A stretch of DNA of 64,000 nt from a virus. The stretch covers positions 50,559 through 114,558 of the IMG/VR virus record IMGVR_UViG_3300025872_000041. The stretch is one strand, 5' to 3'. Under the pieces are notes generated by a model. The model was not told the DNA's origin and searched no databases. It was given only the letters and a program-made list of their open reading frames with translations. Shown in pieces: positions 2,663 through 40,700 of this stretch. Every line of letters begins with the position of its first letter. Positions within the stretch are counted from its first letter, which is position 1. Both the position numbers and the translations under genes were made by a program.

Positions 2663-2701
2663 TCTGGATTAAATTTTGTATCTTATTAATGTAGTCAAGG
2701 T

Positions 2702-3283: not shown

Positions 3284-3288
3284 TAAAA

Positions 3289-3954
3289 ATGGTAACTATT
3301 GGAACCGTAGTCTCAAGGGTAAAAAATCAAGTTAAGAGTGTAAGACAAGATGCATTTCTTACTAATAGGTATGTTTATAATGTTATAATTAAATATGCCC
3401 AAGTTCTGATGAGGAGACAAGACTCTCAGAATAAACTATCTAAATTTAATTCTATTTGGCAAACTTTACCATGTTTAGAGTTAATTGAAATAGATAAGGT
3501 TGAAGCATGCTGCGCTGGTATAAAATCTGGGCGCACTATAATGCGTACAAAAGATAAACTTCCCACATTCATGGAAGGTTACTGGGGTCCTTTAATTAGA
3601 TCTGTAACGTCTATAGATGGTAGTCAGGAATTAAATCCTACTACACCTGGTGTTTATACCTCTATGACTAAGACTACAGGTTTTAAATATAACAACACTA
3701 AGTACTACTGGTTTTTAAACGGTTATTTATATATGCCGAATATTAGCTGGGAAGCTTTAAAGATAGAAGGTATTTTTATTCAAGATGTATCTCAGTATAC
3801 AGATGAAGATACTTGTATTAAAAGAATGGATCATAAGATTAATGTTCCTGAATTTTTATTAGCTGAAGCAGAAAAAATGGCTATCCAAGATTTTATTGGA
3901 AGATTACAGATTCCTTCAGATTTATCAGATGACAATATTAACTTAAACAGATAA
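3289..3954 (+). CDS. Connector/ring structural protein
   Basis: This 221-aa protein begins 5 bp after the IHF-like gene. It has an N-terminal helical hairpin (VSRVKNQVKSVRQDAFLTNRY), a beta-rich middle and a C-terminal helix (EFLLAEAEKMAIQDFIGRLQ). I recognise this pattern from the crAss-like head-to-tail connector genes, but there is no catalytic motif. A role in the ring stack below the portal is inferred from order and size. The next gene starts 4 bp downstream, so the group is one tightly packed operon. Confidence 0.6.
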   Translation: MVTIGTVVSRVKNQVKSVRQDAFLTNRYVYNVIIKYAQVLMRRQDSQNKLSKFNSIWQTLPCLELIEIDKVEACCAGIKSGRTIMRTKDKLPTFMEGYWGPLIRSVTSIDGSQELNPTTPGVYTSMTKTTGFKYNNTKYYWFLNGYLYMPNISWEALKIEGIFIQDVSQYTDEDTCIKRMDHKINVPEFLLAEAEKMAIQDFIGRLQIPSDLSDDNINLNR

Positions 3955-3958
3955 GGCA

Positions 3959-4813
3959 ATGCTTACAGAATTAAAATATAAAACCTTTGATGAATTACTT
4001 GAAGATGTAAGCGTTGATTTCTCAATGTATTCTTTAGAGGGTATGATTGAGCCTCAACAACTTATTAAAGTTGTTCAGAGAATAAATTATGATTTAGGTT
4101 TAAGAATATTTAAAACTAAAGAAGAGGTTCTAGACATTGAGAATAATCTGGTAAAACTACCAGATGATTTCTATGTAATGAACTATGCTTTACTTTGTGG
4201 TCAATACAAAGTTGAACAGCCGGCCATGAGTGGTACTCACGTTGAGGAAGTTATAATTGACCCGGCAACTGTTACTACTCCATGTGGGGATACTTGTATT
4301 ACTGATTGTGGTGATCATATGCGTCTTGTACAAAAATTACAGTATGAGACACGAATATACGATATAAATACACCAATTACATTAACTGGTAACTCTAAAA
4401 GTATTTCTTGTGATTGTCCTAATACCTCTTATAAATCACCATACGTTGGTAAACTTAAAGATGGTTTTATATACATGAACTTAGAGACTGGAAAACTATA
4501 TGTTAACTATCAAGGAGCTTTAGAAGATGAGGATGGTAACTTATTAATCTTAGATCACCCAATGATTAATGAGTACTATGAGTATGGTTTAAAGCAAAGA
4601 ATACTTGAGAATCTTTATATGAATGGAGAGGACGTAATGCAAAAGTTAAATCTTATTGAACAAAGATTCAGAGGAGCTCGTAACAATGCATTGTCTATTG
4701 TAAATACTCCTAACTTTAAAGAGTTATCTAAATTGCATGATATGAATAGACGTGCTATGTATGGCAAGTACTACGATCAATTTAAAAGTTACAACTATAA
4801 TAGTTCTAGATAA
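3959..4813 (+). CDS. Tail tubular / connector ring protein
   Basis: This 284-aa protein has an N-terminal helical region (about residues 1-60, FDELLEDVSVDF … QQLIKVVQRINYDLGLRI) followed by VKLPDDFYVMNYALLCG. This is the pattern of podophage gp4/gp11-like tubular adaptors, which crAss-like annotators call tail tubular proteins. A central part is Cys-rich (CGDTCITDCGDH, about residues 105-116), and the C-terminus is helical and basic. The TAATG overlap with the giant tail-stem gene downstream supports coupled synthesis of adjoining virion parts. Confidence 0.65.
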   Translation: MLTELKYKTFDELLEDVSVDFSMYSLEGMIEPQQLIKVVQRINYDLGLRIFKTKEEVLDIENNLVKLPDDFYVMNYALLCGQYKVEQPAMSGTHVEEVIIDPATVTTPCGDTCITDCGDHMRLVQKLQYETRIYDINTPITLTGNSKSISCDCPNTSYKSPYVGKLKDGFIYMNLETGKLYVNYQGALEDEDGNLLILDHPMINEYYEYGLKQRILENLYMNGEDVMQKLNLIEQRFRGARNNALSIVNTPNFKELSKLHDMNRRAMYGKYYDQFKSYNYNSSR

Positions 4814-21497: not shown

Positions 21498-24059
21498 ATG
21501 GCTAGTTACATTCAAGGTCTTACCGATTATATACCAAAGGCTGAACCTTACAAACCTAATTTTGATTTTCTTAATACGGTTTTAGCAACAAGACAGGCTA
21601 GGTATGATAGCGCACTTAATCAATTAAGTGGCGCTTATGGTAGTATTGTATATGCTGATCTTACAAGAGATGATAATAGAGAAGCAAGAGATAATTTCTT
21701 GAAGAACTCTGAAAAAGCTATTCAGCAAATTACATCTTTAGATCTCTCTGATCCTGCTAATGTACAATTAGCTCAGCAAGTATTCCAACCTTTTGTAGAT
21801 GATAAAAAGATGCAGTATGACATCATGTTTACTAAAGGTATTAAACAAGGCCAACAACAAGCTGAAATATTTAAAAACTCTCTTGATCCAGAAATTAGTT
21901 CTAAATATTGGGATGCTGGGATTAGAGGTTTGCAGTATAGACAATTAGAATTTAAAAGTGCATCTCAAGATAAAGCCTATAAAATGGCCATGCCTAAGTA
22001 TGTTCCTTATGTAAATATCATGAATAAAGCCAGAGAACTGGTTGGTGATGATTTTAAAAACATTAAGATAGAACAAACTATAGGTGGATATGATGTTACT
22101 ACTACCGGTGGTGAAGCTGCTAAACCAGTTATTGCTCAATATCTTAGTATGGCATTAGCTGATGATCCTTCTGTAAAAGCATATGCAAATGAGTTAGCAT
22201 ATGTAAATTCTATGAGTGCCATTACACAGTTAGCTGAACAAAAATTCAATGGTGATATAGATCAAGCTGCTGCAGAATATTATGTTACAAATGCTGATAC
22301 ATTTCTTAAGAATGATAGAAATAGATTAGAGGATCTTGAAGATGGTTATTCACAATATCAAGCTAAAGTAGATATATATGAGTCTAGATTAAATCGTGGT
22401 GGTAGATTGACTCCAAAAGAACAACAAGAGTATCAAGCAACTGTTGCAAAAAGAGATGGTTTTGAAAAAGCTAAAACTAATCTTTCTGATAGAATATCTC
22501 AAATTGTTACTGCTATTAATGATGAGGATATAGATTTGTTATCTAGAGCTATTAGATCTTCTGATGCTAGTTCTTATATTTCTAATGAAATTGGTAAAGC
22601 AACTGAAGTAGAAGCCTATAGAAATTACCAGATAGAAAAAGAAGCTAATGCTTATTCAAAGATTAATTATGAAAAAGCTTTAGATTTTTCTTATTGGACT
22701 AAGAAAGAAAAGATTCAACAAGACTTTCAGCGTGAGATGAAGATGCTAGAGACTGGTGGCTTTGATGATTTTACTACTGGTGCTGTTAAAACTGAAGCTA
22801 GTACAGAAGATGCGTTTGTTTCAGATAGAGCTGAGTTTAATAATAGCTGGAAAGGATTTGGTAACAGTGTATATGAATTAACTAATTCTATTTCTAGTAT
22901 TAATGATGCTAAGTTAAATAGTGCAGTAGGTAATGTTTTAAAAAGCGCTGGTGTTAACATGGCTACTTTAAAACAGGGTAATGTATCATTAACCTCTCTT
23001 AATAAAATCTTTAATGGTATTCAAGATATGATTAAAGCTGATCCTTCTTTAGCCAAGAATTTAGCACCCGCTTTAATTACAGCTAATGATAAGCGTCAAT
23101 TGGCTTATAGTAATATTAGTGCATTAAATACTAATAACAGAGTTATTGCTGCTAATATGAAAGCTTCTGGAAATTACATTCCAACATTTGTTGATTATGT
23201 ATTTGCTAAAGATGGTTCTTTAAGAGATGCTAAATCAGCTTACGCAACAGCTCTTGCTACTAATCCTAATATTGATGCTGATGACTTTATGGATGACTAT
23301 GAAGATTTTATAGAAGATTATCAAGAAAAATATATTGATCTCTCTAAAAATCAAGCTGGTTATAAAGTTGTAGGTACGGCTGGTCCTGGTAGTTATATTA
23401 GTAATAATATTCAAGGTATTGCTGACTTTACTAAACCGTCTTCTAAATTAACTTTAGGATTAAGATCTGCATTAAGTGATGTTTTAAACTCTGATTCTAG
23501 AATTGCAATTGGTACACCTGCTGATGTAGCTTCTGCTAGTGATCGTGTATTTAATAATATTGAAGACAATCAAGTACTTAGAGGTTATCTAAATACATTA
23601 GTATCTGATGCTAGAGCTAATAAGCAGAGTGTTAGTTATTCTTATCAGTCACGTGCTTTAGGTAATCAAGGTTATCAATCTTTAACAGTTAGACCTGGTG
23701 CATCAGATCCTACATTAAAAGCTCTTAAAGAGGCTGGTAGTATTAGTGATGCTGACTATAATAGAATTATTAGTACTGGTGTAACTGCAATTATTTCCGC
23801 AGCTCAAGCAACTAACCTTATTTCTTCTAGATTACAGAAGGATGAGAGACAAGTGATTTTAGATAATGTTGGTACATATAGATATATTAATCCTAACGGA
23901 AATATAGATATGACCTTTACAAAGAATCCAAATGGCAGTATTACTGCTACAGGTACTATGTATGATAGTAGAAAAGGAATGACTGATATATTTACTCAGA
24001 ATAATCTGAATAACATTAGCTTCAGCAATCTCCTTAATAGTTTTGATGCAATTAGATAA
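21498..24059 (+). CDS. Helical virion cargo / ejection protein
   Basis: This 853-aa protein starts MASYIQGLTDYIPKAEPYKPNFDFL. I know this N-terminus from a conserved crAss-like gene just before the RNA polymerase genes. The protein is almost wholly helical, with long charged heptad-like stretches (about residues 255-340 and 380-430) and no Cys-based or catalytic motif. It should be packaged with the RNA polymerase and may scaffold it or line the ejection channel (inference). It is separated from the upstream gene by 54 bp and from the polymerase gene by 19 bp. Its last codons overlap the polymerase promoter. Confidence 0.6.
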   Translation: MASYIQGLTDYIPKAEPYKPNFDFLNTVLATRQARYDSALNQLSGAYGSIVYADLTRDDNREARDNFLKNSEKAIQQITSLDLSDPANVQLAQQVFQPFVDDKKMQYDIMFTKGIKQGQQQAEIFKNSLDPEISSKYWDAGIRGLQYRQLEFKSASQDKAYKMAMPKYVPYVNIMNKARELVGDDFKNIKIEQTIGGYDVTTTGGEAAKPVIAQYLSMALADDPSVKAYANELAYVNSMSAITQLAEQKFNGDIDQAAAEYYVTNADTFLKNDRNRLEDLEDGYSQYQAKVDIYESRLNRGGRLTPKEQQEYQATVAKRDGFEKAKTNLSDRISQIVTAINDEDIDLLSRAIRSSDASSYISNEIGKATEVEAYRNYQIEKEANAYSKINYEKALDFSYWTKKEKIQQDFQREMKMLETGGFDDFTTGAVKTEASTEDAFVSDRAEFNNSWKGFGNSVYELTNSISSINDAKLNSAVGNVLKSAGVNMATLKQGNVSLTSLNKIFNGIQDMIKADPSLAKNLAPALITANDKRQLAYSNISALNTNNRVIAANMKASGNYIPTFVDYVFAKDGSLRDAKSAYATALATNPNIDADDFMDDYEDFIEDYQEKYIDLSKNQAGYKVVGTAGPGSYISNNIQGIADFTKPSSKLTLGLRSALSDVLNSDSRIAIGTPADVASASDRVFNNIEDNQVLRGYLNTLVSDARANKQSVSYSYQSRALGNQGYQSLTVRPGASDPTLKALKEAGSISDADYNRIISTGVTAIISAAQATNLISSRLQKDERQVILDNVGTYRYINPNGNIDMTFTKNPNGSITATGTMYDSRKGMTDIFTQNNLNNISFSNLLNSFDAIR

Positions 24060-24078: not shown

Positions 24079-27000
24079 ATGGAAGAATTTGACAATGCAA
24101 TTCCACCACTAGGTGTTGAACCCGGTTTGCCTTCTAACTTTGAAGGATCAGATGCTTTTCAAGCAAGTATTGCGCCAACTAATGAGCCGTTAATATCTGT
24201 AACTGATACCTATGCTGTTCCTGGAGTTCCAGTACCTTCAGCATTTGGTAGCGTTGCTGTAGATTATGATCCTAGTAATCCTTTTGATGTTGCTAAACAA
24301 GCATTGACAAAACCTATTACTGAATCTGATGTTGCATTTGAGACTTCAAAAGAAAAATATTTTCAGCCTGGGTATCAGCAAACAAACTTTGATAGATACT
24401 ATAATGATAGTGATAACTTCTATAAGCTAGGATTTAATCCATTAGCTAATAACGAAGCATTATATAATCAGAATAGAAGTTGGTATCAAGATTTATTTAG
24501 AGCAGCTGGTGGTATTCCTTCATTAGGATTATCTGTTGTTCAATCAGGATATAGAAGTCTTGCCGATATGGCAACTGGTGATTTCTCTATGACTGATGAA
24601 ACTGGTGCTAGAGAGTTCTCCCAGATTATGGCAGAACGCGGCAGCACTAGAGGTGGTGTATCTGGTTTTGCTTCTAATTTAGTTTTACAATCAGGATTTG
24701 TTGCAGGTATTGCAGCAGATTACTTAGCTACTGAAGCATTACTTGCTGGTGCTGTAGGTTTATCTGAAGGTATGGCTCTTCCTGCAGCTCTTGCTGCTAG
24801 TGCTTCTAAAACAGCTGGTACTATTAGATCCATTTCTGCATTGTTTGATGCTAATACTGCTAGACAAGCTTACAATACAATTAAAGCTATGGATGTGGCT
24901 GCTATTGGTAGAGGTGCATTAAATGTAGCTGAAGCAACTGCTAAGAATATTGTTCCTAATACATTTAAGAATGTTAAGAGTTTCATTACTGCAGAAAGCC
25001 CTGTATTAGGATTAGCTAATTCAGTAAGAGGTGTTGCTGACTTTGTAAGAGATATGAAGCAGATTAGCTATGCTACTGCTGAAGCTTCTATGGAAGGCGG
25101 AGGAGTTAAAAATGATTTTATTGATAAACATATTAATCAATACATTACTGAGAATGGAGTATATCCAGATCAAGATGTATTAAATAAGATTTATGAGAAG
25201 GCATCAGATGCTGGTTTTACAACTGGTATGATAAATGCACCCCTTATTCTTCTTACAAACAATATCACTTTTGATAACTTGTACAAAGGTCGTAAAAGCA
25301 CATTAGGTAAAACAGCTTCAGGTATTGTAGAGGAAAGTAAATTAACTGGAAAAACTTTAAGATTCTCAGAAAGAACCGGACAGTTTGAGACTATGGGTAT
25401 AAGACAATCTTTTGCTGAAAGCATAAGAGGTCTTAAAACTCCAAAAACGTACATGCAGTTTGCTGGTGGTTATTTCTCTAAAAACTTATCTGAAGGTCTT
25501 CAGGAAATTTCTCAAGAGATTATTTCTGGAGCATCTACAGATTACTATGAAAGATTATATGATACTCCAGAAGCTGGAGGTGTAGTAGCTTACTTAGCAG
25601 ATGCTTATGATAATCTTAAAGATCAAGCATCAGCACAAGGTATTGAAGTATTTGCTTCAGGATTTTTAATGGGAGGTCTTACCGGTATTTCTACTGCTGT
25701 AGCTAACAGAGCTTATGGTAGTAGTAAAAATATTATTGGTAAGATAGCACAAGCTAAGAACCCAGAAGAGTATAGAAAAGCTGTAGAAGAAGAGAGCGCT
25801 AGATTTAATAAGATTGCTGATGAATTAAATGATGCCATTAATAATGGTAATAAAGTTCTTGCTCTTGATATAGATAATTTATTATTACAAATCAGAGGAG
25901 GTACTGATATGGTTAATGCTAGAAAATCATTTGATGAAAAAGCATTCCATGATATTAAAGACATAACTCGTTTTAATAGTATCTATACAGCTCTTCAAAC
26001 TGACAAATATGATTTCTTAATTAAGAAATTACAGGACATGCAGCAAATGACCGGTGCAGAATTAAAAGAGGCATTTAGTTTAGCTGATGATGTTACAGAT
26101 GATGAGGCCAAAAAAGTATTAGATATTACTATTGATAGAGCTGGTCAAATTAAAGATCAGTATGAGCAGTTCTCTGCATTTAAGAATCCTTTTAATCCTA
26201 ATACTTATAGATCTGCTAATACTCCAGAATCCATTATTGGATTTATTAATGAGTTACAAAGTTATAAAGGATTTGAAGAGGCCCGCAAAACTGCAGTATT
26301 TAGTTTACATGGTTTAGAACAAGCTAAGACACGTATGGCTGATTTAACTAAACAGATGTCATCTATTGGTGGTGTTGCTGATTTAGGTTACTCTGATGTT
26401 ACAGCTACCTTAAGTATTGCAGGTATTGATAATGAAATAAACTTATTAACTGCAGAGATTGAATCTAGTAAAGATATAACTGATCCGGGTCTTATTGAGA
26501 TTAATGATAATAAAAAGAAGAAGTTAAAAGCTTTAGAATCTTTAAAAACTAATCTTGCCCGTGTTGAAAATATTAATGATCCTGTAGAAGTAAGAAAGAC
26601 TTCTTATTTAAAGAAAGCTTTTAATGACTACATGAAGGTTCTTTTAGATGAGAAAGGTACTGAACTCAGTCCTGCAGATCTAAATGAAGCATATAGAATC
26701 TTTACTGATTATTATGCACTCAATTATGATAAGACAAACTTTAATAAAGTCTTGGCTGACTTATATGATCCTAATAACTTTATTAAGCTTGCTGAAAGAG
26801 AGCGTACTTTAGTTGTTGCAAGAGATAAAAGAAGAGCTGAGTTCTTTAAGAAAGCATTTAAAAAATATGCTGAGACATCTAAGATTGGTATATTTTTAAA
26901 AGCTTTAGCTACTGGTGGATTTGTTATTGATCTTAAGTATCTTAAAGCTTTAGATACTAATACATTTGATGAGCTTAAAGAACTTATTTTAAATGATCCG

Positions 27001-30000
27001 GATATTAAGTTTAGAGATCTAAATAGTAATAAGTTATTTGGTAAAGAAGATCCAAGATTTCAAAATATTAAATCTTTTGTATCTGACTTTGAAGTAAAAA
27101 CAAAAGCTGAAGTAAAACAAACACCATCTGATACTAGTAAACCCAAAGAGGCATCTCAATTTTCTACAGATACTACAGAAGAGGAAGAAGAACTTGGTTC
27201 AGAAGATATCACAGATGTAAGTGAATTTACACAAACTATTGTACGTAGAGCATATGATGATTACTTAAAGGCTTTAAAAGAAGCAGACATACCTGTATCA
27301 TTTGAAGAGTTTGCAACAAGTAAAAAAGCTGTTAGTATTATTAATGCTCTAACAGAGTTAGAAGCAGCTTATGATGCTATTACGGAAACTAAACCTGAGT
27401 TTACTGAATGGTTAAGAGTAAATGCAAGAACCCCTGTAGTATTTGATGTACTAGATAAAAATGGTGTAACTTTCTCAGATATCTTTATTCAACAAAGAGA
27501 TGAGAATCAATATATTACTACAGCATTAGAAGAAGGTGAAAGTATTGTATCTTCTGGATATAATGGGGTTTTTATAACTAAACTTGTAGGATCTATTGAA
27601 GGCGGAGAAGGTGTAGATATTTATTTTGTAAAGTTAAACGATGGCACTATGGCCATTGATGCTACTAATAAGCCTGATGAACTAATTGATTTTGAAATAG
27701 ATATTTATACAAGTTTAGAGAAAGCTCAAAAAGCTCAAAAAGCAATTGGTGATTATTTAGCTAATAATAAAAAACAATTTGTATTTGACAATACTCCATT
27801 AGTTAATGGTCAGATTATATCTGATAATAAAAATAATGAATATGTAGTTTTATCTTATCCTTCAGAAATTGCTGCTGGCTCTAATCTTAAACTTAAAAAC
27901 TTAAAGACCGGAGCTATTCTAACTACTAAATCTTTTACAGGATTTAAATTAGAGAGAGTACCTGTTGAAAAGAAAGAATATGCTTCAAGATTTGATTCTA
28001 CTAGTGTATTAGATAGAGCTTGGGGTAAAAGAATGGAGAATGAATCTCAGAAAGATGCAACAGCACGTCTAAGTAATTTATTAAGAGATACTCCTATTGA
28101 AGAATTACTTAGTGGTCTTAGTATTAGATTTACTAATCTTAATAAATCTCCTGAGAGATATGATTATCTTAGGTTACCAGATCAGAAAGAAAATCAATCG
28201 TTTGGTTTATTTACTGATTCTTATGCAATTGCATTAGTATTTAATGGTGAAGAGATTGGTTATTTACCTAATCCTACATCTTTCCAATTCTTAGATGTAA
28301 ATGGTAATCCTATCTCTTATGATAGAATAAATGCTGATAGAGTTAAGCAAGCTTTCTATTTAAAGAATGGTAGATACAATCAAGCAGTTGCTGATATAAA
28401 AGCTAGTTATAAGAATAAAATTGCTTTATTAAATTATTTAAAATCTAAACTTGGCAAAAATACATCTGTAGAAATTCCTTATTCAGATCTTAAGAAGGTT
28501 GCAAATATCAATATTGGTTTAGGATCTTATGAGTTCTTATCTCGTGATGAAGAAAGACCTAAGTTTTCTGGATTAACTTATAATACTATTAATGGTGGTA
28601 TCTATGTAATTGATAGAAAAAATAAATATAAGAATGGTTCTATTGTAACAGTAGAAGGTTCTCCTATTACAGATATTGATCCTGATTTATTAGAGTCAAC
28701 CATTAAAGAAGTTGATGCTGCTAGGTATAAAAACGGTTATGATACTTTACTTAACTATGGTAGATATGTAGCTGTTGTCAAACTACCTAATGGTAAAGTT
28801 AGATTTGTTGAGTTAACTACACCAGAACTTTCTTCTGAAGAGTTAAATACTTTAGCTGCTAGCATTAAAGAAAGAATTGAGTTAACTAAGAAAGAGAATA
28901 TAGATGACGAGGGTAAACCATTAGCTCAGGAATATAATGATGTATGGAATGAAGATAATATTGGTAGTAAACTATTTATTTCTTTACCATTAAAAGATAG
29001 AGGTAAGTTTCTAGATATTTATGTTAGTCCTAACGGATCTTTAGTTTTAGACTTTGTAAATAAAAATTCTAGAGCTGATAAAATAACTCGTAAGAAAATT
29101 ATTAATGACCCTCAGTTTAATACATTCTCTGAATTACTTACTTTACTAAATACTGCTATTAAAGAACATGATGCTGATGTAAAGTTACCAGCTAATAAAA
29201 TGGATATTGTCCTTACTGGTAGATCATTTAAAGCAACTTTACCAATGAACATTGATACATTACAGGTTCTAGATATGGAAGCTAGTGTAGGTGTTAATGT
29301 GGTTAAAGATGTATCTGTATATGTAGATATGCTTGAGCCAGCTTCTGATGTTCAAGCACAACCGTTATTACCAAAAACTCCAGATGATGTATTAGATATA
29401 GATACTTCTAATATTGATTTTAGTTCTGCTCCTCCTGATGCAAATATAAATCCAGAGTTATTAAGAGGTGTTGCACCTGTTCAAGTAAGTTCTGGAGATG
29501 CTCTAAGTAAAGTATTAGCTGCTCAAAAATCCATTCCTCAGCAGATTAAGCAGTTACAAGCTGAAGCTGATACTAAAACTGATGAAGTAAAAAAAGTATT
29601 ATTAGCTCAAAGAGTTGCTGAGAAAGGTGAATTAACTACTGCTGATAAAAAAGAGATTAGGACAAAAGCTGAAAACTCTCCAGAAGTATTAGCTATTAAA
29701 GCTCAAATTAAAATCTTAACTGATTCTCTAGCATTAAAAGCAGTAAATACTGGTTACACTGAATCTGATGTAACTAATTTAACTGAGTTCTTAACCTGGG
29801 TACAAAATAATCTTCCGGACTTTGTGACTGTAGAAGATTTAAATACTCTTAAGAATAACTTATATAAAGATGGTAAGACTGTGGGTGCATTTGTATCTTC
29901 ATTGTCTAACATAGCTGGTAATGTAGAAGTAAATGGTACTATATATACATCCGCTAGTTCTCCATTTAAATATCATGAAGCTTTTCACGCAGTATTCCGT

Positions 30001-33000
30001 TTATTATTAAATGATGCTCAGATATCTAGATACTTAACAATTGCTAAAAAAGAGTTAAGAGATCAGTTGCGTAAAGAAGGTAAGTCATTCTCTTTAGCTA
30101 AAGAAGAGATGCGCTTATTAAATCCTCTTTATGCAGCAATGAGTGAGTCTCAGTTAGAAGAGAGAATGTATGAAGAGTACCTTGCTGATAAGTTTGATGC
30201 TTGGAAGCTTAATAAAAAAACAGAGACTAGTCATGTAAACAAAAGTTTATTTGCTAAAATTGTTGAGTTAATCAAGAAAATATTTAGCAGATTTACTAAG
30301 AACGAATTAAACTCTTTGTTTGATAATATTGATGCCGGTAAGTATAGAAATAGTAAAGTAGTCACTAATAGATTTACAAACTCTCCATTTGATATAAGCG
30401 AGCCAGTACTTAAAGCTATTAAGATTGGTACAGATATAATTGAAGATTCTACATTTTCTGCTGAAGGTGAAGTTAATTACATTAGAGTAGATAAGTACTT
30501 ACCTGAACAAGAAGGTACTAGGTTAGCTGCAACTGTAGCTGCTCTCTATAATAACAAACTTAAAGATGCAGATAAGCAAACTAATACTGATGAGTTATTA
30601 GATTCTGTATTGGATAGTTATGAAGAACTTTATGATCCAGAGTTAGATCAGTATGTTGATTTAGATACTGCAACTTTTAACAAATTAAAAGAATATAAAG
30701 CTATATTTAGCAAAACTGAAAATAGAGAAATTCTTAAGGAGGCAGTACGTGAACATTTAGCTATTTTAAGTATTAAAGAAACTAATGAGCAAGATGCTTC
30801 AGATGATACTATAGATGAGTTAGGAGAAAGAGGTAAGCAGAATTATACCGAGGGTGCTGCTAGTGTAGGTGGTTTTGGTAGTTTATCTAAGTTTTTAAGA
30901 TCTTGGATATCTACTATTACATATCAAGCAGCTGATGAATTTGGTAATGTACAGTTCTTAGATGGTACACCTTATATCCAATCAGTGGATGGTTCTACAG
31001 TATATAATGGTATTCTTAAAGCAATTGCTGGAACTGAAGATATTGAGGAGGTTCTTTTAAAACTTAATTTATATAAAGAAAGAAACTTTGAGTCTGGTAA
31101 AGTTATTGAAGAATTCTTTATTCAGACTGGAGTAACATTTGATGAAGAAGGTAATCTTGATCTCTCTAATATTAAAAATAGTTATTTGTTCCAATCTTTT
31201 ACAAAAGGTTTTGGTCAGTATGCTATTGACTATTTATTTATTAATAAGGATCTTAAAAAAGAGATTGCAAATATTATCTCTGCAAATAGAAAAGATTCTG
31301 GTAAAGTACAGTTTGATCAATGGTCACAAGCATACAGTAATGCTTATGAAAGTAAATTAACTCCAGAATTAAAAGCTAAAGCCAAAGTTGTTTTAACTAA
31401 GATTATGGGAGCAATGGCACCAACTAAGAAATATACTGATGATGAATTAATCCAGCTAACTAATAAGTTATCTGTAGAATTAATGGAAGTATTGGGTATT
31501 TCTTTAAGTGGTATGTATTTATCTTATTCTATTGCAAGTATTATAAATAATCTTACTCCTCAGCAAATTAAACTATTTAAAATATACTCTAATGTAACAC
31601 CTATTACTAGAGGTGATATTGATGCTTTATATGGTTTAGTAGATAGCGAAGAAAATCCTTTTATAAATATTCAATATGAAACAACTGTAGATGCTGAAAC
31701 AGGAGAGGTTACTCAAGAAACAGAAGTACTAGAAGGTGGTGCTACTACACGTTTATATAATATGGCAAAAGCTAATGCTATATTTGATGAGTCTGTATAT
31801 GCTACTAGCTGGAAAAATGCAGAAGGTCAATTAGTATATGTACACCAATTACCATCATATCACTTAGTTAAGATAAATGAGATTAAGAAAGTCGGTGGTA
31901 TTGAAGACTTATTAAAAGATCCATTCTTAGCAAATAACTATTTATTAAATGATCCAAATTTCTTAGCATCTCTTGATTTACTTACAGTTAAAAGAATAGA
32001 TGGGCAAAAAGTAAGTAGTCTTAATGAGACAGAAGATGGTGATGTAATTGAAAACAAACAACTTGAGGTTAACAGACGTGAGGGAACTACATATGGTAGT
32101 TTTACTCCTGAAGAATTTATTGTTAGTTTACTTGATTTATATTCTGCCGGAGATGTACAAGAAAGAAATAAAGTTAAGTTTGGTATATCTACTCATCTTA
32201 TTCGTGTTCTAGAAGCATCTAGTACCGGTAACGTAATTAATTTACCTGTAATTAAAGCCGCTGCTAAAGTATCTGGTAAAAATACTTTAACCAAACAAGC
32301 ACAAGATGCATTACTTGGTTTTGTAGAACAAGAATATAATCGTATTCAAAGAGTAGCTAATGGTGAATTTACAGATGAGATTTATGATTTTAATACTGGT
32401 AAGATGCGCGGTCTTACATTATTTAAGACTGGTAAACTAATAAGTGAGGATTTAAAGAATGAATTAGAAGCACAAGCTCAAGAGAATTTACCTATAAGTG
32501 AACAACAAAAAGCACAGATTAAAAAAGAGATGACTCAGTCTATGCTTAATGATGTAAATTTCTTAATCACTTTGTTAGATGAAGATAATATTTTACAAGT
32601 AGAAGATGGTAAAGTAACTAAATCTGCATTAGCATCTTTTGTAACTAAAGGTTTTACTAATAAAGATAAAAAGAAATCTACTGATAAAACTAAAAACAGT
32701 ATATTTAATTTAGCAAAAGATGATTACAGATATAATCTTTTACAGATCTATGTAAATGATTTTATTAATACTACTGCTATTAACCAATTAATGCATGGTG
32801 ATCATGCTATATCATTTAAGGATGCTGTAGATGAAATTAAACGTGCTAAAGGATCTAATGCTACTGGTTCTAATATTGAAGCAGTTATAACTGATGAAAA
32901 ACTAGGTATCAAGCATGCATTTAAAACTGCTCATGTAGTTACTATTTCAGATCCTTTATTTCAAGCTAAATATGCAGGTGGTAAAGGAGAAAAAGCAAAT

Positions 33001-36000
33001 GCTCAGATGTGGATGAGTGTAAAAGCTTTACGTTATACATTATTTGGTTTAGGTAAACTATCTCCTATTCAAGCTGAGTTATTAAACAAAATTGAAAATG
33101 GTGAAACAGTAACTGGTGATTTCTTCTTTGGTGATGAAAAACATAAAGGTGCTGTCTCATTTGATGCTGCTACTAATTCTATTAAGTTAGTATATTTTGA
33201 TGGTCAAACATATATTAAGACATCTGGTTTTGTACTAACTAAAGAGTTTACTTCTTATGGTAAAAACTTTGATCAAGCTTTACCTGGTAAAGAACCATTA
33301 CACAATTTACGTAAGACTCTTGAAGCTTATGAAGCAAATAAAGAAACTGTAAGTTTAGCAATTCCAGTATCTGCATCTAAAGGTAAAAAGATAAATGTAG
33401 CTAGTGATGTAAATAGTATTACAGATGCTAATTTTATTGAGACTAGCACTAAATATTGGAGATTACAATTAGAGAATCCTTCTAATAAAATAATAATTAC
33501 AGATACAACTCAAATTAAAACAATTCTTACAGCAGAACAAGATGATGAGACGCTAGTTAATTTTATGGGTACTGATATTTCGGTTGGAGATCTTAAAAAG
33601 ATTTATCAAAATGCATCTATTAACCGAGTTAAGATTAATTATATTGGTAAAAGAAATGCAATCTTTACTTTAGATTCAGGATTAGAAGAAGTTAAAAAAT
33701 CTATTGCAGCTGGAACAGTAACTCCTAAACTTGCAGCATTCCAAAAATATGCTATTGAGACATTAAAATCTTCAGCAGGTGATGCTCAAATGATTGAGTT
33801 CTTTGAACTAGATGAGCAAGGAGAGCCCAAGTATGATCTTAACTCACCTATTACTATTGATAAGTTTGTTGAGTTGTTCTTATCATATTTCTCTAAAGGT
33901 GTCTTATCTGAAAAAGTTCCAGGACATGCTGTAGCATTGGTATCTGATTATGGTGTAAAGCAACTTAAAAAAGTACTAGAGTTGGATGAGAATGGTCAAC
34001 CAAAGAGATGGGAGATTGTAAGAGTTGAGGAATTTAAACTTAATCCTTCTAAGTATGGTACACCTAAAACTCAAGCTGATCTAGAAAATAGAACATTTAA
34101 TGATTTACAAGTAGGTGATTATTATGTAGATGACTTAAGACATAACGTACCTGAGTATGATGAAAATGGTAATATTACTGGATACTTTACTGAGTTTATT
34201 ATGCCAGCTCACTTTAAAGAGTTATTAAGTTTTATTAAGCCCGGTGATAAAATACCAGATGCTGTAGCTAAGATGTTCGGTGTACGTATTCCTTCACAGG
34301 ATAAACACTCTGCAGTAGCTCTCAAACTTGTAGATTTTATGCCAGTATATTATGGATCATCTGCAGTATTTCCACAAGAACTTATTGAGATATCTGGAGC
34401 TGACTTTGATATTGATAAACTCTATATAGCCATTCAAGAATGGTTAGTAGAGAATGGTAAATTTGTAGCCTATGGTAGTGGAACTACTAAGACAGAAAAA
34501 TTTAATCAGTTTGTAAAATATCAATTTAGTAAGAATAAAGAATTTAGAAAGATATATAATGATTATTATAAGGCTTTTGAAAAAGAAGCTAAAGAATTTA
34601 AAGAGTATGCTGCTGATTATTTAGATGAGTTAGATATTATTGATGAGAATGCTACTACTTTAGATTTTAATAAAAAAGAAATTATTCAAGCAGCTTTACA
34701 ATATTTAAATCTTCCATCCACTGCAGATGAGTATAATACTAAAGTAGAAAAGTTAGGATATGAACCTTATCAAGGAGCCCTTAATAATGTAATTGTAAAT
34801 GGACGTATTGCTTTATTAAATAATTCTGCTATGGTTACTGCAAAAGAAGGAGAGATTCCTAAAGCATTTCAGGTAGCTACTGTACAACCCCTTATTGATA
34901 TAGTTAAAAGCTTCACTGAGCAGTTTCCTGAACTTAAAGATCAATTAGAAGAAGGTAAATATAATATTGATACTCTACTTGGTAAGTACTATGCGTTTAG
35001 AAATAATAAAGAAGGTGCTAGAAACATTGGACCAGCGGTTAACTCTTTACTTGTTTATTCATTATTAAATGCTAATAATATTGATATTAGAAAAGCAAGT
35101 ACTTATACAGATGAAACAGGTGAGAAGATAGATCTTACTAATTTAAGATTTAAGCTTAATGGTAAAGAGTTTGATACATATAGTGAGACTAAAGCTTATG
35201 ATCCAAAAACTGGAAAATATGATGGTAAGAGAATAGCTGATATTCTATCTGCTTTAGTATCAGCTATGACAGATAACGCTAAAGAACGTCTTGCTGCTAA
35301 ATTAAATCTTAATATAGATTCATTAGGTGTTGTAGCTAATATGGTAGCCCAGGGTGTATCATTAGAGGATAGCTTACTATTCATCAATCAACCGGCAATA
35401 CGTAAGTTCTATAAAACTTTAAGAACAAATAAATCTTCATATGCTACAGATGCTGAAAGAAAAACAGGAAAAAATACTATTATTAAAAATCTAATAGAAG
35501 GTTATGATGTAAAAGAAATTCCTACTAATATTACAACAGAAGATCTTATTGCTGGCATTAAAAGAAATACTCCTGAAATTCAAGTATATGTACTTAATAG
35601 TTTTAAAACTTTAAATCTGCAAGCAGATACTTTTATGAATATATCTGCAGTATTAAAAGTAAATAAGGGATTACCTAAAGATCTTACAGAGTTTGATGAA
35701 ATCTATGATAAGGCTGTAGATTTAGGTTTAGAGATGACAGATAAAGAGTTTGAGACTAGCTCAATACCATTTGATATTCGTCCTTTATTACGTAATCAGA
35801 ATACAACTTTTGGATTTAACTTTACTGTATATAGAGAGATTAGATCTCTAACCGGTAGTGTTATGTTAAATCGTACACCTGTAGTTAATAGGATGCGTGA
35901 TATAGTATTAGCAAATACAGAGGTTAACTTTAGAGACCGTCAAAACTTTAAAAAGTCATTAGACCAAAACTTAATTTCTTTCTTTGCTATTAAAGCTTAT

Positions 36001-37737
36001 CTTAATATTTTAAATAAAGGCGGTTACAAAAGAGCTTTAGCTTCTTTAAATAACGGTATGATCTATGATCAAGTTGCAAGTACATTACCAGAAAGCATGG
36101 ACAACGTAACTGACGTAGTTAAGAAGTTAAGAGAGTTAAGTCCTAAGAACTATTTTGTAAATAAATTCTTATTTGCAATTACTGCGGCTAACAAATCTAA
36201 TAAAGATGGTATTAATAAAGTAGACTTTAATAACTGGACTAAGTTAAGTAAGTTACAGGTTAATAAAATTCAGTATAGCTTTATGGAGTTATATACTGAT
36301 GAATTAACCAGACCTTATGCAATTGACTTATTTCATTACTTACTTGTTAAAGATGGTGGTCAGTTTAAGTCTGGATCTTTTATTAGGATTATGCCAAACT
36401 TTATGTTTGAGATGATTCTTAATTCTTCTAAAGCTGCAGTTAATGCATTAAAAGGAAGTGCTGATGATGCTTTTGTTAGAAAGACATTTGGTGCAAATAT
36501 TAATGAATTGTACAATGAGTTTGTTAGAGGATTTTTACAAAGTTCTAATACAACGTTCTTTACAAAAACAATTAAAACTAATATTGCTAAGAATAATGAA
36601 CTTAAAGAATTAAAGAAAGAATTAAAACTTTCAAATGATGTACAATCACCAATTACAGTAAATGATAAGGGTATTGAAATTAATGTATTTAAAAATACAT
36701 CATTTGAGAAAGAGTTAATTCCTTTAGGTGATGTGTCTAACTATAAAGGTGATGAGATGATAGTTGACCAGAATGGTAATTATCAGATTGTACAACCTAT
36801 GATTGCATTACCTGGAGAATCTAGGTTATCTGAAGAAGGTAAACAGATTTATAGATATAATTTAAAATTTTTAAGAGCTGCAGGTTTAGTACAAGAAAGT
36901 AAAGATGGTAAAACACAAATAGGTTTTCCATTAGTATTTAAAAGAGTTGAGTATGTTAATTTTGATAAACAGACTACTTTCTATAGATTAAAAACTATAA
37001 AGAGAGATAGAGCTAAACAAGAAGAAAACTTAGCTGATCTTATTCAACCGGGTGATATGTATGCATTTGGTGTATCTGCACAGTATGAAAAGTTTGATCC
37101 AATTGGTTCTAGAAAACAATTTGCTGCGGGCTTTGTAATTCCTGGAACATTACCTACAAGTAAGAATATCTTTAAAGATAGAAGAAATAAAAATGTAGGT
37201 AATAATCCTGGTGCATTACCTGATACTAGTAATATTGATGCACTTGTTGAAGCTCAAATAGCTAACATAGAAAAACAGTTAGGTAATGTAGATATCAGTA
37301 AAGCTCCAGCTAATGTATCAAGTACTCTAGCTTCTAATGGTATTACTGTTAAAACTGAAGGTAAGAAGATTAAATATGAGAAAGATGGTAAACCATTTGA
37401 AACCACTGCTAAATCACCTGAAGAATTAGCTAATACTTTAACTCCTAAACCTCAAGAACAAACTGAAGAATTTGGAGATATTGATGCTATGATAGCAAGT
37501 GCTCCGGCAGCAGCGTTTAATGTATCTATAGGAGCAATTCTTAAAGCTAAAGCAGAGTACCCAGTACTTAATGAGTTCTATATGAATGAGCTTACAGATG
37601 AACAAAAAGAAAAAATAAAACAAGATTTAAATATTACCTCATTTGTTAATTTTGTAGAACAGTACAAAGATTACGTAAATACTAGTGGTGGTAATCAAAA
37701 TAGTTTTGTAGAACAAATAAAAAAATGTTATTTATAA
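24079..37737 (+). CDS. Giant virion RNA polymerase polyprotein-like protein with zincin domain
   Basis: This 4,552-aa protein contains the metal-binding loop of two-barrel RNA polymerases. SGADFDIDK places D3442, D3444 and D3446, preceded by RIPSQDKHS at about 3410, which matches the beta-prime double-psi barrel motif of YonO and crAss-like phage enzymes. A zincin motif HEAFH is at 1966-1970. The rest is mostly helical and charged, with acidic linkers near 1010-1050. In other crAss-like phages these parts occur in two or more large proteins of about 2,000 residues, so here they appear fused. Known relatives (phi14:2 gp66) are injected to transcribe early genes. The zincin may process the fused chain (inference). 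Confidence 0.85.
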   Translation: MEEFDNAIPPLGVEPGLPSNFEGSDAFQASIAPTNEPLISVTDTYAVPGVPVPSAFGSVAVDYDPSNPFDVAKQALTKPITESDVAFETSKEKYFQPGYQQTNFDRYYNDSDNFYKLGFNPLANNEALYNQNRSWYQDLFRAAGGIPSLGLSVVQSGYRSLADMATGDFSMTDETGAREFSQIMAERGSTRGGVSGFASNLVLQSGFVAGIAADYLATEALLAGAVGLSEGMALPAALAASASKTAGTIRSISALFDANTARQAYNTIKAMDVAAIGRGALNVAEATAKNIVPNTFKNVKSFITAESPVLGLANSVRGVADFVRDMKQISYATAEASMEGGGVKNDFIDKHINQYITENGVYPDQDVLNKIYEKASDAGFTTGMINAPLILLTNNITFDNLYKGRKSTLGKTASGIVEESKLTGKTLRFSERTGQFETMGIRQSFAESIRGLKTPKTYMQFAGGYFSKNLSEGLQEISQEIISGASTDYYERLYDTPEAGGVVAYLADAYDNLKDQASAQGIEVFASGFLMGGLTGISTAVANRAYGSSKNIIGKIAQAKNPEEYRKAVEEESARFNKIADELNDAINNGNKVLALDIDNLLLQIRGGTDMVNARKSFDEKAFHDIKDITRFNSIYTALQTDKYDFLIKKLQDMQQMTGAELKEAFSLADDVTDDEAKKVLDITIDRAGQIKDQYEQFSAFKNPFNPNTYRSANTPESIIGFINELQSYKGFEEARKTAVFSLHGLEQAKTRMADLTKQMSSIGGVADLGYSDVTATLSIAGIDNEINLLTAEIESSKDITDPGLIEINDNKKKKLKALESLKTNLARVENINDPVEVRKTSYLKKAFNDYMKVLLDEKGTELSPADLNEAYRIFTDYYALNYDKTNFNKVLADLYDPNNFIKLAERERTLVVARDKRRAEFFKKAFKKYAETSKIGIFLKALATGGFVIDLKYLKALDTNTFDELKELILNDPDIKFRDLNSNKLFGKEDPRFQNIKSFVSDFEVKTKAEVKQTPSDTSKPKEASQFSTDTTEEEEELGSEDITDVSEFTQTIVRRAYDDYLKALKEADIPVSFEEFATSKKAVSIINALTELEAAYDAITETKPEFTEWLRVNARTPVVFDVLDKNGVTFSDIFIQQRDENQYITTALEEGESIVSSGYNGVFITKLVGSIEGGEGVDIYFVKLNDGTMAIDATNKPDELIDFEIDIYTSLEKAQKAQKAIGDYLANNKKQFVFDNTPLVNGQIISDNKNNEYVVLSYPSEIAAGSNLKLKNLKTGAILTTKSFTGFKLERVPVEKKEYASRFDSTSVLDRAWGKRMENESQKDATARLSNLLRDTPIEELLSGLSIRFTNLNKSPERYDYLRLPDQKENQSFGLFTDSYAIALVFNGEEIGYLPNPTSFQFLDVNGNPISYDRINADRVKQAFYLKNGRYNQAVADIKASYKNKIALLNYLKSKLGKNTSVEIPYSDLKKVANINIGLGSYEFLSRDEERPKFSGLTYNTINGGIYVIDRKNKYKNGSIVTVEGSPITDIDPDLLESTIKEVDAARYKNGYDTLLNYGRYVAVVKLPNGKVRFVELTTPELSSEELNTLAASIKERIELTKKENIDDEGKPLAQEYNDVWNEDNIGSKLFISLPLKDRGKFLDIYVSPNGSLVLDFVNKNSRADKITRKKIINDPQFNTFSELLTLLNTAIKEHDADVKLPANKMDIVLTGRSFKATLPMNIDTLQVLDMEASVGVNVVKDVSVYVDMLEPASDVQAQPLLPKTPDDVLDIDTSNIDFSSAPPDANINPELLRGVAPVQVSSGDALSKVLAAQKSIPQQIKQLQAEADTKTDEVKKVLLAQRVAEKGELTTADKKEIRTKAENSPEVLAIKAQIKILTDSLALKAVNTGYTESDVTNLTEFLTWVQNNLPDFVTVEDLNTLKNNLYKDGKTVGAFVSSLSNIAGNVEVNGTIYTSASSPFKYHEAFHAVFRLLLNDAQISRYLTIAKKELRDQLRKEGKSFSLAKEEMRLLNPLYAAMSESQLEERMYEEYLADKFDAWKLNKKTETSHVNKSLFAKIVELIKKIFSRFTKNELNSLFDNIDAGKYRNSKVVTNRFTNSPFDISEPVLKAIKIGTDIIEDSTFSAEGEVNYIRVDKYLPEQEGTRLAATVAALYNNKLKDADKQTNTDELLDSVLDSYEELYDPELDQYVDLDTATFNKLKEYKAIFSKTENREILKEAVREHLAILSIKETNEQDASDDTIDELGERGKQNYTEGAASVGGFGSLSKFLRSWISTITYQAADEFGNVQFLDGTPYIQSVDGSTVYNGILKAIAGTEDIEEVLLKLNLYKERNFESGKVIEEFFIQTGVTFDEEGNLDLSNIKNSYLFQSFTKGFGQYAIDYLFINKDLKKEIANIISANRKDSGKVQFDQWSQAYSNAYESKLTPELKAKAKVVLTKIMGAMAPTKKYTDDELIQLTNKLSVELMEVLGISLSGMYLSYSIASIINNLTPQQIKLFKIYSNVTPITRGDIDALYGLVDSEENPFINIQYETTVDAETGEVTQETEVLEGGATTRLYNMAKANAIFDESVYATSWKNAEGQLVYVHQLPSYHLVKINEIKKVGGIEDLLKDPFLANNYLLNDPNFLASLDLLTVKRIDGQKVSSLNETEDGDVIENKQLEVNRREGTTYGSFTPEEFIVSLLDLYSAGDVQERNKVKFGISTHLIRVLEASSTGNVINLPVIKAAAKVSGKNTLTKQAQDALLGFVEQEYNRIQRVANGEFTDEIYDFNTGKMRGLTLFKTGKLISEDLKNELEAQAQENLPISEQQKAQIKKEMTQSMLNDVNFLITLLDEDNILQVEDGKVTKSALASFVTKGFTNKDKKKSTDKTKNSIFNLAKDDYRYNLLQIYVNDFINTTAINQLMHGDHAISFKDAVDEIKRAKGSNATGSNIEAVITDEKLGIKHAFKTAHVVTISDPLFQAKYAGGKGEKANAQMWMSVKALRYTLFGLGKLSPIQAELLNKIENGETVTGDFFFGDEKHKGAVSFDAATNSIKLVYFDGQTYIKTSGFVLTKEFTSYGKNFDQALPGKEPLHNLRKTLEAYEANKETVSLAIPVSASKGKKINVASDVNSITDANFIETSTKYWRLQLENPSNKIIITDTTQIKTILTAEQDDETLVNFMGTDISVGDLKKIYQNASINRVKINYIGKRNAIFTLDSGLEEVKKSIAAGTVTPKLAAFQKYAIETLKSSAGDAQMIEFFELDEQGEPKYDLNSPITIDKFVELFLSYFSKGVLSEKVPGHAVALVSDYGVKQLKKVLELDENGQPKRWEIVRVEEFKLNPSKYGTPKTQADLENRTFNDLQVGDYYVDDLRHNVPEYDENGNITGYFTEFIMPAHFKELLSFIKPGDKIPDAVAKMFGVRIPSQDKHSAVALKLVDFMPVYYGSSAVFPQELIEISGADFDIDKLYIAIQEWLVENGKFVAYGSGTTKTEKFNQFVKYQFSKNKEFRKIYNDYYKAFEKEAKEFKEYAADYLDELDIIDENATTLDFNKKEIIQAALQYLNLPSTADEYNTKVEKLGYEPYQGALNNVIVNGRIALLNNSAMVTAKEGEIPKAFQVATVQPLIDIVKSFTEQFPELKDQLEEGKYNIDTLLGKYYAFRNNKEGARNIGPAVNSLLVYSLLNANNIDIRKASTYTDETGEKIDLTNLRFKLNGKEFDTYSETKAYDPKTGKYDGKRIADILSALVSAMTDNAKERLAAKLNLNIDSLGVVANMVAQGVSLEDSLLFINQPAIRKFYKTLRTNKSSYATDAERKTGKNTIIKNLIEGYDVKEIPTNITTEDLIAGIKRNTPEIQVYVLNSFKTLNLQADTFMNISAVLKVNKGLPKDLTEFDEIYDKAVDLGLEMTDKEFETSSIPFDIRPLLRNQNTTFGFNFTVYREIRSLTGSVMLNRTPVVNRMRDIVLANTEVNFRDRQNFKKSLDQNLISFFAIKAYLNILNKGGYKRALASLNNGMIYDQVASTLPESMDNVTDVVKKLRELSPKNYFVNKFLFAITAANKSNKDGINKVDFNNWTKLSKLQVNKIQYSFMELYTDELTRPYAIDLFHYLLVKDGGQFKSGSFIRIMPNFMFEMILNSSKAAVNALKGSADDAFVRKTFGANINELYNEFVRGFLQSSNTTFFTKTIKTNIAKNNELKELKKELKLSNDVQSPITVNDKGIEINVFKNTSFEKELIPLGDVSNYKGDEMIVDQNGNYQIVQPMIALPGESRLSEEGKQIYRYNLKFLRAAGLVQESKDGKTQIGFPLVFKRVEYVNFDKQTTFYRLKTIKRDRAKQEENLADLIQPGDMYAFGVSAQYEKFDPIGSRKQFAAGFVIPGTLPTSKNIFKDRRNKNVGNNPGALPDTSNIDALVEAQIANIEKQLGNVDISKAPANVSSTLASNGITVKTEGKKIKYEKDGKPFETTAKSPEELANTLTPKPQEQTEEFGDIDAMIASAPAAAFNVSIGAILKAKAEYPVLNEFYMNELTDEQKEKIKQDLNITSFVNFVEQYKDYVNTSGGNQNSFVEQIKKCYL

Positions 37738-37740
37738 GAG

Positions 37741-40700
37741 ATGGCTTGTCATAATAGAAACTTACCAGAATATAAAGCCCTGATGGGTGTATACAATAAC
37801 AATCTTATTGTAGATAGTATTATTGATAACTATCAACTCAAAGAAAATACAGACAACTTTCCAAGTATTGCAGAGGCAGAAGATATTGTAAAAGCTAATC
37901 AAGTAAAGTTTAGTCTCAAAAAAAAACAATATGCTGATGCAGTGATAGGAAATCTAAGACAGAGAAGAATGATTTCCTCTGTTACTATAGATGGTAAACT
38001 TAGATACTTTGTTACTGGTACTATAGAAGGTATGCGGGAAATAGATCCTGCTGTTCTTAGAAATAATAAACAAAGAATTATTAACTACCTAAACTATAAC
38101 AGAGTACCGGCTGAAACATATGATTTTAGAACTACAGAGAATAGTATAGAGTTCATCATTAAAGAAAACATGTTTACTCCAGTTGATGTAATTGGAGAAT
38201 CTGAGAATACTAATAATGCTATTGATGTACTAGAATACTTATCTGCTGTTTTACCAGATGTAAGTTATGAGATTGTAACTGTAGAAGAAGCTAAAAAGAT
38301 CTATGATAAGTTACCAGTTAAACCGAATTTAAACTTTGATAAGATTAAGAGTTTTTATTATCAGAACACAGCATACATAATTAAAAGTAGAGTTACTACC
38401 GAGACAGCCATTGAAGAGATGCTGCACCCTGTAGTAGATGCTTTATTTGTAGGTAGACCTGATATTTTTGGTAAATTACTTATTGAAGCTAGACAAGCAT
38501 TTCCTGTTTTAACACAGCAGATTAAAGATAGTTATACCGGACAAAAGGGATTCTTTGAGAAGTACAGAGATGTGGAGTTAGTAACTCAAGCATTAACTAG
38601 ACACTTTAAAAAAGAATATGAGAATCAACCAGGTAACTCTTTTAAAAGTGCCATTAGAGAATTTATAGAATGGTTTGCAGAATTAGTTAATGATATCTAT
38701 AAAGCAATTACAGGAAATGAATTAAATATTAGTGCACAAGATTTAAAAGAAAACGTTACACTTACTGATATTGCTAAGTTATTAAATACTAAAGAGTTAA
38801 GATTTAGCACAGGACCTATTGCAAGTAATGTTCAGGCTACAGTTAAATTAAGTATTGATAAGAATGATCCTGAGTATATCAGAAAAGAGGCCAGTAAAAA
38901 AGCTGCTAAGAATAGAGCAGTAAATAATTTACAGAGAGATATAGTAGATGTTCTATATAATACTCCAATGTTCTTAGATGAAGAAACACATACATATACC
39001 AATCTAGAAACCGGAGAAGAATATAAGTCTATGACCTCCGCTATTAAAGGTGGTCTTAATGATCCAGATAATCTATATGAAATGAATAGATTATTTGGTA
39101 AAGACTTTGACAAGATTCTTCAAGATATTATAGATGGTAAAACATTTGATGAGGCGCTAGAAAGTGTAACTGTATTAGATCCGGCTTTAGCTGAGGATGC
39201 ATATGATTCACTTAGTGCATATGTAGCTACTCTTACATTAGATGGTTCTGTAATTTTACCACAAGTTATTCTTGCTGATGATCAATCTAAAATTGCCGGC
39301 TCATTAGATATCCTTATTATTAAACCAGATGGGTCATTGTATATTGTAGATTTAAAAGTATCCAAGACAAGTATAAAAGATCCCGGTTATTATGAGATTG
39401 CATATCCTACAAATGAAGGTTCTTTACTACAGGGACAAAGATTAACTACTAAGCAACAGCAAAGTATCCAAGTAATGGGTTATGCTAAGCTAGCTAATAT
39501 CAATGGTTTCCCAGTATCTGGTGTATCTACGTATCATTATAACTTAGATATAGAAGGTAAGGGTAAAGACCAAAAGGTAAAGAGCTTTAGAGTAGAAGGA
39601 GTAGTGCAGCATAATGAGACAGAAAACTTAACTTATGTAGATAGAATTATTCCTACAGATCCTTTTAAGAATACTCTTAATGACTTAAAGATAAAGAACG
39701 GTTACAACGTAACTAATGATCCTAATTTTATAAGTCCTGAAGATGAGAAATCAGAAGTGGGCCTAACTGATGAGCAATATACAAATGTTGCTTTATTTAT
39801 GAAGGATGTGGTTTCACAGTTAGTAAAACGTAATGATGCCTTACAAAGTATTATTGATTCATCTAAACAGATTAAACCTAAAAAACAAACTGTAGATAAA
39901 ATTAATAGTCTAATTGCTATACTTAGTACAGAGATTAATAGCGGTAAAGCAGATATAGCATTAGGAAGATTCTTAAATAGTTCTAAAGAAGAGTTGGAAA
40001 ACTTTATTAAGTATGCCTCTAATCCTAAGTCAGTATCTAAAGAAGATTATATTTCTGTAGTACTTATGTTTAGTAAGTTTATGGAAACCTATAGAGGTAT
40101 CCGTAATCTTAGTTTAAGTAATGTTGTTAATCCCGGTCAAAGAGAGATTGCAATTGCAGTAACAGATTTATTAAACATTGCTGATAGTACAATTGATCAA
40201 GCTATAGAAAATTTTACTATTAATTTTATTAGAACCAATTCTACTAGAAACTTTACAGAAGAAGATTTAAAAAACATCATCAAAGAAACTACAGATATTT
40301 CTATGGCTGATGCACAGCTTGGTGATTTAGCAACTAGTACAGATACTATCTTAGCTCTTATTGATAAAGTATATAAGAGAGAAAAACAAAAGATTGAAGA
40401 TGATGTACAAGAGTTTAGTGAAAGAGCAATTACTTTAGGTAATAGATTAGCTTCATTATCTGGCGGAGCACCTAACTATGATTTTATGTTGGTGTATGAT
40501 AAAGATGGAAAATTTACCGGTAGATATGTACAAAAGATTGGTTATCAATACTATAAGAAGTTCTATGAGTTAAGAAATAAACTTGTAGACAATAATGGTA
40601 ACTGGTTAGAATATATAAACATACCTAATTTAGATGACGCTAAAGTTGAAGATATTAAGTTTAACCAAGAACTTTTCTTAAATAGACAAGCTTATAGTGA

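Follow-up and report, generated by a model that had tools for sequence, protein, structure and literature searches.

The window analysed here, the final 64 kb (64,000 nucleotides) of a 114,558-base virus record, encodes in a single open frame a 4,552-residue protein in which a catalytic virion RNA polymerase (vRNAP) of the crAss phage gp50/gp66 type is fused behind a protein of the gp47 type and which is probably packaged in the virion. We propose, with a probability of roughly 0.7, that the gp47, gp50 and gp49 proteins of such phages form one continuous chain, in which every joint would be sealed through gene fusion or through two terminal cysteines that face each other, the latter most likely as a disulfide. 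The fusion, the polymerase fold, the order of the proteins, the cysteine pattern and the coupling of that pattern to split and fused joints are shown here.

Large virion polymerases have to get through a narrow tail and arrive in the correct order and proportions, a problem not yet solved (PMC12633501, PMC10172136). Should terminal cysteines connect the links, the multi-protein crAss polymerase would in effect be one molecule, which would account for the presence of both fused and split forms among related phages. Such a linkage would also suggest that extra proteins can be attached to the ejected chain in a modular fashion.

The fused polymerase gene and its parts

The open reading frame (ORF) runs on the + strand (24079..37737) from an ATG at 24079 to a stop codon ending at 37737 and contains no internal stops. 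That it encodes one protein, as the preliminary description had claimed, is borne out by this unbroken frame and by full-length, single-frame versions of 4,566-4,910 aa in five further IMG/VR contigs (L001, L002, L003, L004 and L011). Comparison of the window with L002 and L001 gives dN/dS values of 0.17 and 0.24, respectively, for the whole protein and of 0.17 and 0.16 over the fusion junction, and the ORF is under purifying selection. A concealed stop or frameshift, the error that was named as fatal to the claim, finds no support when the frames of the relatives and dN/dS are examined, and a sequencing or assembly artefact is ruled out by the full-length relatives together with the low dN/dS. 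We also rejected the idea that the catalytic half begins at its own ATG at the junction, since the stretch between residues 2030 and 2443 is free of Met codons and a separate internal start is therefore unlikely. The ORF is a single, genuine gene.

Searches of Pfam, PHROGs and PDB sequences with the whole 4,552-aa protein returned nothing usable, and the parts were assigned by HMM-HMM comparison. The gp47-type part spans residues 1 to ~2095 (24079..30363, +): residues ~570-667 match crAss001 gp47 with E 1.3e-7, and residues 1904-2095 match the C-terminal zincin region of the same protein with E 3.6e-12. crAss001 gp47 is an RNAP-associated protein and gp47, gp49 and gp50 are all virion proteins (PMC10172136). 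The zincin motif HEAFH (residues 1966-1970), which aligns with the HEAFH of crAss001 gp47, and a downstream Glu pair (residues 2032-2033; together 29974..30177, +) are invariant in 40 relatives. Both the HExxH and a downstream ligand are thus present in a region homologous to the gp47 zincin region, and on motif and homology we assign a putative metallopeptidase; a Foldseek search with a low-confidence model of the zincin and junction (pLDDT 69) gave no significant match. The fusion junction itself, residues ~2087-2110 (30337..30408, +), contains no cysteine and includes the point, residue 2095, at which the gp47 alignment stops; low pLDDT at positions 252-258 and 265-274 of the junction model predicts a flexible region.

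The C-terminal half (residues ~2100-4552) matches phi14:2 g066 (E 1.9e-14) and crAss001 gp50 (E 2.5e-14), also by HMM-HMM comparison, so that gp47-type and catalytic RNAP matches lie in one chain and the virion RNA polymerase fusion first suggested from the bare sequence holds. An AlphaFold model of the catalytic core, residues 2742-3891 (32302..35751, +), has a pLDDT of 86 and superimposes on the phi14:2 RNAP (6VR4) with a Z score of 21.9 and an rmsd of 3.1 over 827 residues, model residues 1-1149 aligning to 6VR4 residues 697-1804; its next structural matches are the RNA-interference polymerases QDE-1 and RDR2. The model places the phi14:2 gp66 fold around the active site of the giant protein. 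The DFDID catalytic loop was found where the preliminary description had put it, at residues 3442-3446 (34402..34416, +), and aligns with those of phi14:2, crAss001 and p-crAssphage; the surrounding SGADFDID (3439-3446) fits the crAss-like RNAP context [ST]G[AS]DFD[IV]D. For phi14:2, both the presence of the vRNAP in virions and its role in early transcription are known, as is packaging for crAss001 (PMC7886860, PMC10172136).

The following gene (37741..43029, +) encodes a 1,762-aa protein of the gp49 type, the next link of the proposed chain, with HMM matches to crAss001 gp49 (E 3.9e-19), to phi14:2 g065 and, within p-crAssphage gp44, to the C-terminal part. The order of the block in the window, gp47-gp50-gp49 type, is that of phi14:2 g067-g066-g065. 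Upstream lies a gene for an 853-aa protein without cysteine (21498..24059, +), which was called cargo-like from its place in the block; no sequence match to known proteins was found for it, and it is not part of the Cys-joined chain. At 15362-17878, just upstream of the cargo-like genes, an 838-aa protein is encoded that matches DUF5872 and DUF5754, and a 512-aa protein encoded just before the window (G000:C1:49329-50867) has 25 cysteines (4.9%), unlike the Cys-poor virion cargo proteins.

Fused and split forms among crassviruses

The giant protein had been ranked among the largest of phage proteins. Large it is, but it is not exceptional, as GenBank holds crAss vRNAPs of 4,946 and 5,801 aa and a review gives lengths that reach ~6,000 aa (PMC10136315); giant RNAPs have been described as characteristic of these phages. 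The lengths of the giant proteins are 4,070 aa for p-crAssphage gp44, 4,946 for cr118_1, 4,460 for cr10_1 and, with TAG read as Gln, 5,801 for cr130_1, and single chains of 5,472-5,824 aa were found among the relatives that we surveyed. The protein of the window is thus a new member of an already known kind of crAss vRNAP.

The accompanying claim, that related phages split these functions over separate proteins, stands for the Steigviridae (crAss001, phi14:2 and cr128_1), in which the RNAP block consists of three proteins, but the fused form is not rare. In the environmental clade that surrounds the window the gp47 type is usually fused to the RNAP, and by the RNAP-core tree this fusion occurs also in the Suoliviridae; we therefore reject the view of the fused form as an outlier; the Intestiviridae and Crevaviridae fuse the other pair, RNAP and gp49 type. 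Both kinds of fusion join exactly the neighbours of the gp47, gp50, gp49 order, and in that order. In the RNAP-core tree the window groups within an environmental clade, separately from those named families that were included, and the deep forks are weakly supported, so that we make no statement as to whether the ancestral state was fused or split.

Comparison with individual phages follows the same lines. The window shares with phi14:2 gp66 (PDB 6VR4) and crAss001 gp50 the DFDxD motif, the core fold, the virion gene block and the gene order, and differs in that its RNAP is fused behind the gp47-type protein and that the cores are only ~20% identical. With p-crAssphage (KP06_gp44 and KP06_gp45, Intestiviridae) it has in common a giant fused RNAP, a zincin-bearing neighbour and cysteines at the facing ends, though the 4,070-aa p-crAssphage protein joins the catalytic part to the gp49 type where that of the window joins the gp47 type to the catalytic part. 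The Suoliviridae giants (cr118_1, cr10_1 and cr130_1) have the same fusion as the window, with the zincin before the RNAP and a C-terminal Cys that faces an N-terminal Cys, but contain more internal cysteines.

Several smaller observations concern these genes. Seven relatives (L012-L018) are ~50% identical to the window in their N-terminal parts and only ~24% in the RNAP core, and their genomes look mosaic. In cr116_1 (L106, 15678-16519) the RNAP frame breaks after DFD and resumes at VDKEYLM some 840 bases on; the gap holds an endonuclease-like ORF, which suggests an intron within the catalytic loop. Giant RNAP fusions, those of cr118_1 and cr130_1 among them, carry the GenBank annotations exonuclease V and DprA-like protein (L103:5980-20820 and L107:2884-20289).

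Terminal cysteines at the joints

The giant protein contains a single cysteine, Cys4550, at position -3 from its C-terminus (37726..37728, +), and the 1,762-aa gp49-type protein also contains a single cysteine, Cys3 (37747..37749, +), which faces it; at the rate of the other genes of this genome 43 and 17 cysteines would be expected, respectively. Facing cysteines are also found in the named phages: g067 C-1 with g066 C3 and g066 C-2 with g065 C3 in phi14:2, gp47 C-3 with gp50 C5 and gp50 C-9 with gp49 C5 in crAss001, gp45 C-2 with gp44 C3 in p-crAssphage, and a pair at every readable joint of cr118_1, cr127_1, jaberico, cr128_1 and cr11_1. In all, the pattern was seen in four Crassvirales families and in two non-redundant sets of metagenomic relatives (53 and 78). 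To the extent that the openly readable literature covers it, neither the terminal-cysteine pattern nor delivery as a head-to-tail thread has been described before, and an earlier report is possible; the word "cysteine" does not occur in the main text of the crAss001 structure paper (PMC10172136).

In the first survey, of 53 non-redundant pairs of a giant and its next protein, the window included, 49 giants have exactly one Cys and 49 pairs have facing cysteines within the last 6 and first 6 residues, where gene starts in this and the second survey are first-ATG calls, the relatives are not independent and the counts are not probabilities. Of the four exceptions, L033 has an over-called start and L096 has its Cys at -14; L025 contains an additional module flanked by Cys, after which comes a protein that starts with GTG and reads MTCQ, and L045 has an insertion that includes a Cys-flanked module of 148 aa. 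Between the giant and this last module, in the RNAP block, lies a protein that matches YkuD (L,D-transpeptidase; L045:14295-16124).

When the joints of the RNAP block were assigned by homology and a strict rule was applied, a cysteine pair was present at 62 of 69 adjacent block joints versus 1 of 95 other adjacent gene pairs, and that one is the chain module of L025. The seven misses comprise cysteines at -8 to -11 (L105, L111 and L008) or -14 (L096), an over-called start (L108) and a frameshift (L046); only the 966/501 joint of L064 is without Cys. Free ends were also examined, and a Cys is present in the first 15 residues of none of 14 complete giants and in the last 15 residues of 1 of 53 following proteins. 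Ends that face a chain partner carry a terminal Cys and free ends do not. In crAss001 and cr128_1 the gp47 gene lies on the strand opposite gp50 and the facing terminal Cys of both are kept, and in L187 unrelated genes separate the RNAP from a gp49-type gene ~6 kb away that still starts MSCK. Since the pairs persist where genes are displaced or on opposite strands, an effect at the level of the DNA junction, such as stop/start overlap or coupling, is ruled out. The cysteine pairs define the order gp47, gp50, gp49.

A second survey of 125 further loci, fetched with gut-type queries after the rule had been formed and reduced to 78, allowed the fused joints to be compared with the split ones. Where the polymerase has an N-terminal Cys its adjacent upstream neighbour ends in Cys (21 of 22), and where it has none the neighbour also lacks a terminal Cys (30 of 31). 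Polymerases whose tail is unfused carry a C-terminal Cys in 57 of 59 cases and those bearing a long fused tail in 1 of 13, the length limits having been set post hoc, and the partner of that lone exception starts with Cys. Six fully fused three-part chains of 4,933-5,824 aa, in which BLAST to gp47- and gp49-type proteins confirmed both partner parts, have no terminal Cys, and three of them (4,933, 5,005 and 5,472 aa) contain no Cys throughout. Among the deviating joints are a Cys at -24 (L175) and two unexplained loci (L219 and L223), perhaps broken or recoded ORFs.

Split points also differ between close relatives. The polymerase proteins of L012 and L013 are 91% identical; L013 has an additional 583-aa link with Cys at both ends, whereas L012 lacks this link except for the final 26 residues, which are joined to the polymerase; there the two inner joint cysteines are missing and the outer one is retained. 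New split points with new Cys pairs were found in L012-L018, L025, L058, L211, L217, L225 and L227. The Cys-flanked extra proteins (L013:23801-25552, 583 aa; L025:13942-15096, 384 aa; L058:11851-14430, 859 aa) have no convincing match to a named family.

Internal cysteines, which tell against the proposed linkage, number 3-15 in several lineages. Five chains (L105, L108, L118, L194 and L195) have several, up to 15, and are possibly tied to an anoxic habitat; most environmental chains have joint Cys only.

A proposed chain linked head to tail

The sequences favour a polymerase block that is kept as one chain, because Cys pairs are found at split joints and none at fused joints. It is also likely that the RNAP proteins are disulfide-linked head to tail, that fusion and cysteine pair are interchangeable and that extra cargo can be added as Cys-flanked links. 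In the window the chain would consist of two links, of which the giant is the first and the larger; its single C-terminal Cys would pair with the single N-terminal Cys of the gp49-type protein, the second link. The near or complete absence of other cysteines from the chain in most lineages would prevent wrong pairings. We infer a covalent bond formed in the virion, by which the chain would be packaged with its proteins in a fixed 1:1:1 order and drawn across portal and tail as a single unfolded thread, its links coming apart in the reducing cytoplasm of the host. A point against the disulfide is that the cytoplasm in which phage proteins are synthesised is reducing, so that it could arise only in the course of assembly or later. 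No clear thioredoxin-like gene emerged from a quick scan of the phage record for CxxC, which gives no support to enzyme-assisted formation. Disulfides are documented in the tail and portal vertex of crAss001, and partial unfolding on ejection has been proposed for its cargo (PMC10172136).

The cysteine pattern alone does not tell the type of bond, and as Cys pairs are common metal ligands the facing residues might instead hold the subunits together non-covalently, for example through a joint metal ion, in the enzyme that folds after ejection. We regard this as unlikely, as one Cys from each of two chains supplies two ligands only, no cluster of His or additional Cys was seen at either end, and nearly Cys-free chains are better fitted to the avoidance of disulfide scrambling than to metal binding. 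Quite unlikely, in our judgement, is a polyprotein that its own zincin cuts near residue 2100, yielding a gp47-type protein and an RNAP like the separate ones of crAss001. The invariant HExxH and Glu do lie just before the predicted flexible junction, yet the HExxH is missing from the fully fused L183 (5,472 aa), from the fused L191, L193 and L199 and from phi14:2 g067, so that cutting by the zincin is not a general requirement; moreover, split forms re-link the gp47/RNAP joint by Cys pairs. Cutting before ejection, which the preliminary description had offered as the alternative to threading, thus appears unlikely.

That the terminal cysteines are leftovers of ancestry, or chance residues in Cys-poor proteins with no function at the joint, we consider very improbable. 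The relatives are not independent and termini within a close clade are similar, and Cys poverty by itself is found also in the vRNAP of N4; against this, pairs arise at new, non-homologous split points, vanish at fused joints, including those of the Cys-free fully fused chains, and are absent from other gene pairs.

Continuous linkage by fusion or disulfide, the reading that we prefer, can be set beside two other giant virion polymerases. The vRNAP of N4 (Schitoviridae) belongs to a different family, the single-subunit T7 type. At 3,500 aa it too is a giant single ejected chain with an HExxH motif (PMC12633501) and it contains no Cys; unlike the window, joints to partners of the Cys-pair kind are not seen. 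The 5,002-aa vRNAP of Thermus phage P23-45 is likewise a two-barrel RNAP that has become part of a giant virion protein by fusion, and differs in that the RNAP of this extremely long-tailed phage is fused to the tail tape measure protein (PMC10770324).
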